Of a stretch of DNA of 64,000 bases, positions 31,276-43,359 are shown piece by piece. Source of the DNA: Acidovorax sp. HDW3 (GTDB taxonomy: Bacteria; Pseudomonadota; Gammaproteobacteria; Burkholderiales; Burkholderiaceae_C); assembly GCF_011303755.1 (NCBI RefSeq), contig NZ_CP049885.1, positions 1,594,001 through 1,658,000 on the forward strand, read 5' to 3'. The notes under the pieces were generated by a model. That model was not told the origin of the DNA. It saw only the letters and a program-made list of their open reading frames with translations, and ran no database searches. Position 1 is the stretch's first letter. Each line of letters begins with the position of its first letter. Position numbers and translations under genes: made by a program.

Positions 31276-32208
31276 TCACAGCTTGCGCCGCACCGCCAGG
31301 TAGCGCGCCTCATTGGTCACGTTGGCAGCACTGGCAAACTTGGAAGTCAGCAGCGGTTCGAGCTTGCTGGCCCGCTCTGCCGGGTTCGGGTGGGTGGAGA
31401 ACAGCATCTGAAAATTCACGTCGCTGCCCGAGCCACTGGCGGCGTACATCTTGAGCACCGAAGGCAGGCCATCAGCACGGTAGCCGGCGCGTGCAGCGTA
31501 GAGCAGCGCTTGGCGGTCGGCGTCAAACTCGTCAGATTGATCCAGCCCCTTGGCGTAGAGGTTGCGCACGGCGTTGACCATGGCTGCCGTCATCGCCCCA
31601 TTGCTCGTTTGCGTCTGGATGATGCCCCCCGCTATTTGCGCCCAGCCGCCCTTCTTCAAGGCCGCCAGGTAGTGCCCGCGCACCACATGCGCCACCTCGT
31701 GCGCCAGCACCCCGGCCAATTCGGCCTCGTTCTTGAGCTGGCGCAGCAGGCCCACGGTGACGAACACATAGCCCCCCGGCGTGGCGTAGGCGTTGACGGC
31801 GTCCGAATCAATGATGCCAAAGCGCCAGGCGAATTGAATGGCGCGCCCGTCCTTGTCCTTGGGTGGCTCCGCCTGCAGCGCCACCCACCAGCCGATCTGG
31901 TTGACGTAGCGCTGCGCCATGTCGTTGCGCAGCAGCGGGCGCGCGCCCAGCAGCACCGAAGAAAACTCCTGCCCCAGCGCGTGCTGCTCCTGCGGCGAGT
32001 AATCTTTAAAGGCCGCAGAGGCGCCACCGATGACATCTTGAATGCCGTTGGCCATGCCCGAGCCGCCGCCACCGCCGCCGCCGCCGCCACCCAGGGCAGA
32101 GGCCAGATTGCCCATCTGGCCAACGTTGGGCATGGTCTCGCAACCCGAGAGCAGCGCGCCACTGAGCGCCACAGCGGCCAGGAAGGGGTACAAAGCACGC
32201 TTTTTCAT
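31276..32208 (-). CDS. M48-family metalloprotease lipoprotein
   Basis: A 310-residue secreted zinc protease. The lipobox LSGC places the lipidated Cys at 23, so it is anchored in the envelope. A run of ten glycines lies at about 40-49. The zinc motif is LAHEVAHVVRGH (His170, Glu171, His174), and a downstream Glu is in SDEFDADRQAL. The family includes LoiP/BepA-type quality-control proteases, and the end STHPNPAERASKLEPLL is typical. It is the last gene of the operon and overlaps the SH3 gene by four bases. Confidence 0.92.
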   Translation of the reverse strand: MKKRALYPFLAAVALSGALLSGCETMPNVGQMGNLASALGGGGGGGGGGSGMANGIQDVIGGASAAFKDYSPQEQHALGQEFSSVLLGARPLLRNDMAQRYVNQIGWWVALQAEPPKDKDGRAIQFAWRFGIIDSDAVNAYATPGGYVFVTVGLLRQLKNEAELAGVLAHEVAHVVRGHYLAALKKGGWAQIAGGIIQTQTSNGAMTAAMVNAVRNLYAKGLDQSDEFDADRQALLYAARAGYRADGLPSVLKMYAASGSGSDVNFQMLFSTHPNPAERASKLEPLLTSKFASAANVTNEARYLAVRRKL

Positions 32209-32726
32209 GGCTGGGCTCCGTCGTAGGGGGCAAAGGACTGGACCTGGAGCTTGCCGTTCTTGGCAAACTGCTGCGCCTGGGCGGCGGTGGCGGCAAAGCT
32301 CTCCATGCGCTGCACTTCAGCCGGTGCTGGCTGGGCATTGGCCAGCTGCTCGGCCGTCAGGCCGCGCGTGCCGGTGGTGGCCGTGGGCCGGTTGCTGCTG
32401 GCGCTGAAAACGCCCGACAGGCCGGTGAGCGGGTTTTGCGCTGCCGGCGCCGCCGTGCTCAGGGCGCGCACATGGGTACTGCGCAGCCAACCCTCCTGGC
32501 CCTGCACCTGCACGCGCAGCCAGCCGCCGCGCACCTCCAGCTGCTGCACCATGGTGCCTACGGTGAGCGAGACCAGGTTTTTGGCATTGAGCGCCGGGCC
32601 CGCACGCAGCTCCGTGGCGGTGGACACTTGCAGCGATTGGGCACAGGCCCAACTGGCCGCCGTGGCCAGCAGGCCAGCAGCGAACAGCCGCTTCAGGGGC
32701 CGTGCAATCAGGGGTAGAGCAATCAT
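32205..32726 (-). CDS. Periplasmic SH3-domain protein
   Basis: A 173-residue protein with a signal peptide (LFAAGLLATAASWACAQ) and one bacterial SH3 domain at about 33-88 (ATELRAGPALNAKNLVSLTV, GGWLRVQVQGQEGWLRSTHV). The remaining half is low-complexity Ala/Thr/Gln. Such domains often bind peptidoglycan or protein partners. It overlaps the genes on both sides by four bases, so it is translationally coupled to the cyclase and the protease. Confidence 0.82.
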   Translation of the reverse strand: MIALPLIARPLKRLFAAGLLATAASWACAQSLQVSTATELRAGPALNAKNLVSLTVGTMVQQLEVRGGWLRVQVQGQEGWLRSTHVRALSTAAPAAQNPLTGLSGVFSASSNRPTATTGTRGLTAEQLANAQPAPAEVQRMESFAATAAQAQQFAKNGKLQVQSFAPYDGAQP

Positions 32727-34609
32727 GGGTTGGCTTCCTCCAGGTGATGGGGGCGCTCGGCCTTGCGCTGGGGCTCAAACAGGCGCACTTCCTGCTCGCG
32801 GCCTTTGACGTGAAACGCTCCCCGGTCGATAAAGTCAAACGCATCGCCGCATTGTGCGCGCGTTGTCTCCGAAACCAATACCGTCGCCACGCCCTTGGTG
32901 CAGCCTTCAATGCGGCTGGCAAGGTTGACGGTATCGCCAATGGCGGTGTAGTCCAGGCGCCGGCTGGTGCCCAAAAAGCCCACCACCGCCGGCCCGGAGT
33001 GCACGCCTATGCCAATGGCAAACTGCACCCCCGGCTCCTGCTGCGCCAGCTCGGCGGCAAAAACCTGCAAGGCATCGGCCATGCCCAGCGCCGCCTGCAC
33101 CGCCAGCACGGCGTGCTGCGGCTGCGCCAGGGGGGCGCCCCAAAAGGCCATGATGGCGTCGCCAATGAATTTATCGAGCGTGCCCTGGTGGCGAAAAATC
33201 ACCTCCACCTGCATCTCAAAATAGCGGTTGAGCAGCGCCACAATGGCCTCGGGCGGGCGGTGCTCAGACAGGCTGGTAAAGCCCCGAATATCGGAAAACA
33301 GCACCGTGACCTCGCGGCTGCTCGACACCTCGGCCTGCACCACCTGCGCCGGATCCGACAGGTCTTGCACGATGTGCGGATCGACAAAGCGCGCAAACAT
33401 GGCCTGCACATGGCGCCGCTGCTGCCCTTCGAGCCGCACCGACAGCAGGCCAAAGGCCAGCAGCGCCAGCGCCCCGAGCATCAGCGGCGACAGCGGCATC
33501 CAATACACCCGCCACTGCAGCGCCACCGCCGCGCCCAGCAGCGCCAGCAGCACCACGGCCACAAAACCACCGACCGTGTGCGCCAGCGATACACGGGTGG
33601 CAAAGCTGTAGCCCAGCGCACCAATGAGCGCCAGCGCCAGCGCCACATGGCTCGCCAGCGGCGCATCGCGCAGCCAGTCGCTGTTTTCAAGGTTGGCAAT
33701 GCCAGTGGCCAAGACGAACGGGCCGGGCGTGGTGGCGTCGATGGGCGTGGGCACAAAGTCGTGCAGGCCGCTGGCCGTGGCGCCAATGATGATGACCTTG
33801 CCACGCGGGTCAAAAGGCAGCGCCGCGCCCTCGGTCTGCGAAGCCAGATAGGCCCGGGCATAGGGAATGCGCGTGAACTCGCGCCCATACCAGTTCAGGC
33901 GAAAGCGCGCCGCGTGCGGGTGCGGCAGCTGCAGCGCATCGGCCACGCGGCCAATGATGTGCGGCAGCCACCAGCCCTGGTGCACGCGCCCGAGCTCGGT
34001 GCTGCGGCCAATGCCGTCCTCATCCTTGATGAAGTTGATGTAGCCGGTGCGCCAGACTTCGGGCGGCAGCGCCGTCGGGCCGTCGATGCCGTAGCGCGCC
34101 TGGGGCTGCGCCAGCGGCAGCGGGCGAATACCCATGGCCGGCGGCGCCAGCGCCAGCGGCGCCTGCTGCGTCGAGTCTTCGAGCAAGATCATGGGCACGA
34201 AGGCGCGTTCAAAGCGCAGCGCCTGCGCCAGGGCGGCGTCGTTTTCAGGGTGAAAACGGTCGGGCGGCGACAAAATCAAATCGAGCACGATGGCGCGCGG
34301 CGCCTGCGCCGCCAGCGCCTCGATCAGCTCGGCATGGATCACGCGCGGCCAGGACCAGGCGCCGGCGAGCTCAAACATCTGCGGGTCTTGCAACGAGGGC
34401 TGGTCGATGTCGATCAACACCACATCCGCCGGCGGTACCCGCGCCTGCGCGTGCCAGCGCAGCAGCACATCGCCCAGGCGGTGGTCAAGCGCGGCAAGGC
34501 TGTGCACATACAGCAATTCCAGCAAAGCCAGCGCCACCAAGGCCAGCGCCAGCAGCCAGTGCAGGGGGCCACGCTGGCCGGGCTTGAATGACAGGAAAGG
34601 TAAACGCAC
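32723..34609 (-). CDS. CHASE2-domain adenylate/guanylate cyclase
   Basis: A 628-residue membrane receptor cyclase. After an N-terminal helix, a periplasmic CHASE2 domain (about 50-330, DVVLIDIDQPSLQDP) leads into three transmembrane helices (about 335-405). The C-terminal class III cyclase domain has the metal Asp residues in VLFSDIRGFTSLSEH and KFIGDAIMAFWG. The Lys before FIGDA and the Asp in DYTAIGDTVNLASRIEG favour ATP as substrate, i.e. an adenylate cyclase. It heads an operon with an SH3 protein and an M48 protease. Confidence 0.92.
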   Translation of the reverse strand: MRLPFLSFKPGQRGPLHWLLALALVALALLELLYVHSLAALDHRLGDVLLRWHAQARVPPADVVLIDIDQPSLQDPQMFELAGAWSWPRVIHAELIEALAAQAPRAIVLDLILSPPDRFHPENDAALAQALRFERAFVPMILLEDSTQQAPLALAPPAMGIRPLPLAQPQARYGIDGPTALPPEVWRTGYINFIKDEDGIGRSTELGRVHQGWWLPHIIGRVADALQLPHPHAARFRLNWYGREFTRIPYARAYLASQTEGAALPFDPRGKVIIIGATASGLHDFVPTPIDATTPGPFVLATGIANLENSDWLRDAPLASHVALALALIGALGYSFATRVSLAHTVGGFVAVVLLALLGAAVALQWRVYWMPLSPLMLGALALLAFGLLSVRLEGQQRRHVQAMFARFVDPHIVQDLSDPAQVVQAEVSSSREVTVLFSDIRGFTSLSEHRPPEAIVALLNRYFEMQVEVIFRHQGTLDKFIGDAIMAFWGAPLAQPQHAVLAVQAALGMADALQVFAAELAQQEPGVQFAIGIGVHSGPAVVGFLGTSRRLDYTAIGDTVNLASRIEGCTKGVATVLVSETTRAQCGDAFDFIDRGAFHVKGREQEVRLFEPQRKAERPHHLEEANP

Positions 34610-34669: not shown

Positions 34670-34708
34670 GCTGCCAGCGCTTATAAAATAAGCGCTGGCA
34701 GCATTTTT
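34670..34708. repeat. Dispersed palindromic repeat, perfect 15-bp hairpin
   Basis: GCTGCCAGCGCTTAT (34670-34684) pairs perfectly with ATAAGCGCTGGCAGC (34688-34702) around a 3-base loop, followed by ATTTTT on the plus strand. It lies between the SMR gene and the cyclase gene and is one of the two most symmetrical copies in the window. Confidence 0.9.
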
Positions 34709-43315: not shown

Positions 43316-43359
43316 AATAGCTTCTAGCGCTTACCCAATAAGCGCTAGAAGCTATTTTT
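43316..43359 (+). terminator. Repeat-type perfect hairpin terminator
   Basis: An 18-bp perfect stem (43316-43333 with 43339-43356; core TAGCGCTTA/TAAGCGCTA) around a CCCAA loop, followed by TTTTT. It is the best-preserved copy of the dispersed repeat. It lies between the convergent ParA-like and osmC genes and is well placed to terminate both. Confidence 0.88.

Follow-up and report, generated by a model that had tools for sequence, protein, structure and literature searches.

Several bacterial systems are known in which CHASE2 receptors work with partners in the cell envelope. In Sinorhizobium meliloti, the CHASE2 adenylate cyclases CyaD1, CyaD2 and CyaK act with the outer-membrane protein NsrA (PMC13001267). 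In Campylobacterota, CHASE2-cyclase genes are clustered with FecR, TPR and phosphodiesterase genes (PMC9239204). The Burkholderia BiofilmReg operon encodes a response regulator, a LysM-FecR protein, a CHASE2 histidine kinase and a DUF4136 protein, and its description states that the factors recognised by CHASE2 domains were not known as of 2016 (PMC5192318). Among M48 metalloproteases, the plug histidine H246 of Escherichia coli BepA coordinates zinc (PMC7950410).

In the present study, a stretch of 64,000 nucleotides from the genome of Acidovorax sp. HDW3 (single contig, 3.15 Mb), here called the window, was analysed. Open reading frames and Pfam searches placed a gene for a CHASE2 class III cyclase, followed by genes for an SH3 protein bearing a signal peptide and for a lipoprotein protease of the M48 family, at positions 31276-34609 of the minus strand. 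The features of this trio are:

32723..34609, minus strand: CHASE2 receptor with class III adenylate cyclase domain, 628 aa, GTG start; Pfam CHASE2 7.2e-40 and Guanylate_cyc 2.5e-28; best solved relative CyaB (3r5g)
32205..32726, minus strand: secreted SH3 protein, 173 aa, with signal peptide, one SH3 domain (residues ~31-88) and a conserved C-terminal tail (~115-160); Pfam SH3_3 and SH3_4
31276..32208, minus strand: M48 metalloprotease lipoprotein, 310 aa, BepA-type peptidase domain without TPR; Pfam Peptidase_M48 4.8e-27; lipobox; Foldseek matches 3c37 and BepA
32723..32726, minus strand: ATGA stop/start overlap of the cyclase and SH3 genes, 4 bases; a start at the same offset is available in 3 of 8 relatives (listing of all candidate starts)
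32205..32208, minus strand: ATGA stop/start overlap of the SH3 and M48 genes, 4 bases; a start at the same offset is available in 8 of 8 relatives (same listing)

The first-pass annotation had described an operon at 32205-34609 with four-base stop/start overlaps at 32205-32208 and 32723-32726. Both overlaps were found, each as ATGA on the minus strand; the span covers the cyclase and SH3 genes but stops 4 bases into the M48 gene, whereas the whole operon extends over 31276-34609. Overlap counts from the order survey described below were excluded as evidence because the start-choosing script preferred 4-base overlaps.

The S. meliloti system shares the CHASE2 class III cyclase with the trio, and for its cAMP output it relies on a partner in the outer membrane; unlike in the trio, this partner is a beta-barrel and the effector is Clr, and the consulted part of the report mentions neither SH3 nor M48 (PMC13001267). 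The excerpted Campylobacterota clusters likewise place a CHASE2 cyclase beside envelope proteins, theirs together with a cAMP phosphodiesterase, whereas FecR and TPR proteins replace SH3 and M48, and a phosphodiesterase-like gene adjoins just 8 of the present loci (PMC9239204). The SH3 protein of the trio does not qualify as a FecR-type partner as in the CHASE2/FecR operons, the Pfam scan having returned SH3 models only and no FecR domain. BiofilmReg resembles the trio in combining a CHASE2 receptor and a secreted domain protein within one operon and differs, as far as the excerpt describes it, in its kinase output and in having neither M48 nor SH3 (PMC5192318). BepA, YcaL and LoiP share the fold, the zinc ligands and the HPx4R plug motif with the M48 protein of the trio, and YcaL and LoiP are lipoproteins as well (PMC7950410, in part). 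In contrast to these enzymes, the trio's protease is linked to SH3 and CHASE2, gave no TPR match in its 310 aa and scored far under the NCBIfam cut-offs for the BepA equivalog (86.9 bits vs 570) and LoiP (45 bits vs 365), and was assigned to neither. The literature search returned no paper joining CHASE2 with M48, nor the M48 family with an SH3 domain and adenylate cyclase, which agrees with the earlier statement that no pathway of this make-up has been described; analogues are published (PMC9239204, PMC5192318, each consulted in part). CHASE2 receptors with envelope partners are thus known already, and what is new is SH3 and M48 as predicted partners, with a broad distribution.

Domains and conserved residues of the three proteins

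In the cyclase, CHASE2 was located at residues 27-333 and Guanylate_cyc at 429-607, both over the Pfam cut-off. Aligned with the solved CyaB cyclase 3r5g, the window's protein retains D440, K480, D484, D553, N562 and R566, which we take to be the metal, adenine and transition-state residues of class III cyclases. In the alignment of 59 cyclases, K480, D484, N562 and R566 are kept throughout and D440 in 58 with one gap; position 553, which pairs with adenine, holds D in 42, E in 14 and another residue in 3. By domain order and catalytic residues the protein is classified as a class III receptor adenylate cyclase, and synthesis of cAMP is predicted. The cyclase activity supposed in the first-pass annotation is supported to the extent that the window's protein and its relatives have the residues that an active adenylate cyclase needs. 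The window's genome contains one match to this CHASE2 protein and two Guanylate_cyc proteins altogether. In one related locus (L060, genome G003), the cyclase and SMR genes are each broken across frames; due to the fact that the adjoining SMR gene is split too, the three-frame cyclase was not accepted as a real state and a sequencing error is likely.

The SH3 domain was modelled at a pLDDT of ~97 and the short tail helices at ~70-77. Foldseek matched SH3 folds weakly, with two matches at E up to 0.001. Across 21 sequences the tail is conserved as strongly as the domain (T115, T117, G119, R121, G122, L123, E126, A131, P133, Q150, A151, F154 and A155).

The M48 protein begins with a lipobox-like LSGC-E sequence, and a lipobox is present in all 8 close M48 sequences, the window's among them. 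It carries the HExxH motif, the third ligand Glu and the HPx4R plug of M48 metallopeptidases, and resembles 3c37 and BepA both by sequence and, in Foldseek, by fold. H170, E171, H174, E227, H273 and R279 are kept in 122 of 122 aligned sequences and P274 in 121. H273-P274...R279 is the counterpart of the active-site plug HPx4R of BepA, with H273 aligning with BepA H246. With the catalytic residues intact in 58-59 of 59 cyclases and in 122 of 122 proteases, the activity of each enzyme probably matters. Locus L078, where the frame runs through, was considered as a natural SH3-M48 fusion and set aside: its protease motif lacks the first histidine and the tail is absent, so this is a decayed copy and no evidence for SH3-M48 contact.

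Distribution and history of the gene set

In 150 genomes of the family, searches with the cyclase, M48 and SH3 proteins matched in 110, 19 and 35 genomes at the chosen cut-offs, most cyclase matches being other CHASE2 or cyclase proteins. Among 399 family genomes, M48 matched at 1e-25 in 40, of which 10 showed 61-100% identity and 30 showed 37-42%, and the cyclase matched at 1e-90 in 12, including the 10 close-M48 genomes. In all of these 10, the cyclase (69-100% identity) lies ~600 bases upstream on the same strand; the remaining two have a diverged copy (44-46%) without close M48, and in the one whose locus was read (G130) no SH3 or M48 match was found near the cyclase. Six named Acidovorax/Paenacidovorax loci from the related-locus search all have the order cyclase-SH3-M48. 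In the 15 distant family pairs L064-L078 (M48 at 37-42%, L078 decayed), the cyclase was absent from the fetched stretch in 15 of 15, and the proteases of L064-L077 lack a lipobox where the 8 close sequences have one. A frame (c4) considered as upstream partner in these pairs was dropped, as it lies antisense over a divergent short-chain dehydrogenase gene. As a control, 26 other CHASE2-cyclase loci (L005-L030) were read, and none has this SH3 or M48 within ~1.5 kb; in many of them the upstream frame looks FHA-like by its motif.

After the first family survey the trio appeared limited to one genus or narrow clade, with a plain SH3-M48 pair elsewhere; this was overturned by the order and class searches. 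At the order level, the SH3-family profile matched 75 of 250 genomes. The loci returned first numbered 29 without the window's own, and 25 of them had a match to the window's cyclase directly upstream. Up to 13 kb were then read around 80 matches with profiles of all three proteins, lipobox calls in this survey being simple pattern matches. A cyclase is located directly upstream in 39 loci, a CHASE2 protein with another cytoplasmic tail occurs in 15, and a CHASE2 cyclase lies downstream of M48 in 7; of the rest, 16 have no same-strand CHASE2, 2 are at contig ends and 1 lacks M48. CHASE2 accordingly accompanies SH3-M48, upstream or downstream, in 61 of the 79 order loci with M48. Among these 16, L203 does have a CHASE2 gene close by, in divergent orientation.

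Loci from class and phylum span a flank of ~1.5 kb, beyond which a CHASE2 gene would be missed. At the class level, a wider SH3 profile matched 35 of 224 genomes, and 30 loci were fetched, one being the window's own. The other 29 comprise 14 with a cyclase domain upstream of SH3 (L224 stopping before any M48), 10 with SH3-M48 and no cyclase domain (L212 at a contig end) and 5 with the SH3 match only. At the phylum level, 8 of 249 genomes matched, the window's own included: L238 is a cyclase trio, L237, from another class, a trio with the other tail, L236 has part of a CHASE2 gene downstream, and four further loci have SH3-M48 with no cyclase within the short flank. The three-gene unit is hence borne out well past the genus, and rare co-occurrence in relatives, which had been named as grounds for giving up the idea, was not what the family, order and class surveys found. 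A constant fourth partner was looked for and rejected, the recurring flanking genes that were scanned being mostly housekeeping genes (MTHFR, AdoHcyase), with the exception of the PDEase_II-like gene treated below.

The history of the gene set was approached with a quick M48 tree of 122 rows, unrooted and without bootstrap, which does not separate gain from loss; L154, L204, L207, L224 and L226 were left out, and L078, L082, L084, L205 and L232-L242 are absent from its list. Neighbourhood types are strongly clustered on this tree (15 changes vs 54 in shuffles), which is partly automatic because of near relatives. Among the rows with the trio, 14 family codes of the order are represented, f1 being one of them, and the class adds another 11. 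The clade of 8 that includes the window lies beside two cyclase-bearing rows from another family of the order; the SH3-M48 pairs of the window's own family fall elsewhere, together with loci of family f23 that have no cyclase. Cyclase-upstream loci fall on both sides of the tree midpoint. As the tree is unrooted, we infer rather than read from it an old trio that would have undergone several losses and at least one change of output, with two family lineages of separate histories.

Output of the CHASE2 protein

The 15 CHASE2 proteins with another tail (L161, L163, L164, L168, L171, L172, L177, L179, L184, L188-L190, L192, L199 and L202) are mostly ~570 aa long, have a cytoplasmic tail of ~150-230 aa and occupy the gene position of the cyclase. 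In the 6 of 15 scanned, the cytoplasmic region gave no Pfam match. That the tail is a dead cyclase was not upheld by profile comparison: the alignment kept the register of the cyclase core, with a probability of just 1-2%. The tail may be a cyclase that has degenerated or else a new kind of output domain. Since the tail was not recognisable as a cyclase in these 15 of 79 order loci, cAMP is not always the output. The other-tail proteins represent a natural swap of output in one gene position.

A gene for a PDEase_II-like MBL-fold protein is located beside the module in 8 loci (L146, L155, L166, L182, L185, L195, L197 and L198). All 8 have a cyclase, upstream in 3 and downstream in 5 (of 7 downstream-cyclase loci), and the gene was found in 0 of 15 other-tail and 0 of 16 order loci without CHASE2. 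The L155 protein scored 49.1 bits against a Pfam cut-off of 23.7 for class II cAMP phosphodiesterases and had no NCBIfam match reaching the cut-off. The association of this gene with cyclase-bearing modules favours cAMP as the output where the cyclase is present. The gene is absent from the window.

Of 9 cNMP-binding matches in the window's genome, 8 were read, and none joins a CRP-type RS cassette to a helix-turn-helix. A stand-alone cNMP-binding protein (L119, G000:C1:3141613-3141855) has a CRP-like RSA cassette, and no helix-turn-helix was seen in it; this protein is a possible candidate for a cAMP effector.

Proposed mechanism, rival explanations and surroundings of the trio

On balance, and by a narrow preference, we read the three genes as one conserved envelope-to-cAMP signalling module, on the basis of the observed gene order, recurrence, domains and conserved catalytic residues. 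The CHASE2 protein would be the receptor, with an outer domain located in the periplasm and, on the cytoplasmic side, a class III cyclase making cAMP, and the SH3 protein and the M48 protease would be its periplasmic partners. The SH3 protein probably cooperates with the protease via its conserved C-terminal tail, and a histidine plug of the BepA type may close the active site of the protease. Within the clade of the window, the outer membrane is the predicted destination of this protease, which is a lipoprotein there. The SH3-M48 pair would handle faulty envelope proteins or wall, and its occupancy would be reported to CHASE2, changing the synthesis of cAMP. The contacts between the proteins, the direction in which control runs, the nature of the signal and the role of cAMP as working output in the window are proposed from the observed features. 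Of the envelope stress pathway using cAMP that the first-pass annotation had suggested, the recurring unit and the cyclase residues stand; the pathway itself is conjectural, and SH3-M48 also occurs without a CHASE2 neighbour. If the module reading is true, M48 quality-control proteases gain a second messenger. Moreover, the conserved trio offers two named, putatively periplasmic partners for CHASE2, one with a testable enzymatic activity, and what CHASE2 senses becomes approachable through two small genes and cAMP. A wider version, tentatively held and judged somewhat less probable than not, is that SH3-M48-CHASE2 constitutes a widespread, undescribed transmembrane unit of beta- and gammaproteobacteria, in which CHASE2 would read the load of a BepA-type protease with exchangeable outputs, mostly cAMP and elsewhere another cytoplasmic domain, giving a cAMP-using envelope stress response beside sigma-E, Cpx and Rcs.

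Against the module reading stand the SH3-M48 pairs without CHASE2, the other tails, the lack of an obvious CRP, the variable D553 and, for the phosphodiesterase-like gene, its absence from the window and the lack of an NCBIfam match over the cut-off in the L155 copy. The pairs in particular, without same-strand adjacent CHASE2 in 16 of 79 order loci and in 15 of 15 family pairs read, mean that SH3-M48 can work without CHASE2 or with a distant one. They would also be expected if SH3-M48 were the true unit, a protease with its adaptor in envelope quality control, and the CHASE2 cyclase shared the operon only for the timing or place of synthesis; the SH3/M48 overlap, possible in 8 of 8 close relatives as compared with 3 of 8 for cyclase/SH3, points the same way. 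We regard this explanation as rather unlikely, though deserving attention, because CHASE2 lies on one side of the pair or the other in 61 of the 79 order loci, because within the family the cyclase is missing where close M48 is missing, save for two diverged copies, and because co-expression alone leaves the other-tail CHASE2 in the same position unexplained.

A less probable alternative, to which we give little weight, is proteolytic signalling, in which M48 would cleave either CHASE2 or SH3 and thereby switch the cyclase on or off, the protease being the sensor and SH3 an inhibitor or ligand. The operon order suits it, as does the invariance of zinc ligands and plug histidine in 122 of 122 sequences, which a gated protease requires; however, no cleavage site or processed form is visible in the sequence, and the family has other CHASE2 cyclases that lack this protease as a neighbour. 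Bacterial genes that adjoin often overlap by four bases, and for the window on its own this would allow chance neighbours in a compact genome. The neighbourhood survey refuted that explanation by recurrence in family, order and class amid other flanking genes, and it is now exceedingly improbable. That the trio goes beyond chance is confirmed by the gene order repeated amid different flanking genes and by dN < dS in all 9 pairwise comparisons, for which each of the three genes was set against those of three relatives.

In the window, the same-strand upstream neighbours of the trio are an SMR transporter gene and rlmB, and a convergent yjfB-like gene lies downstream. The stretch that separates the cyclase gene from the SMR gene contains a perfect palindrome (34670-34702), which may represent a repeat element or a terminator; a similar core is found at 43327.
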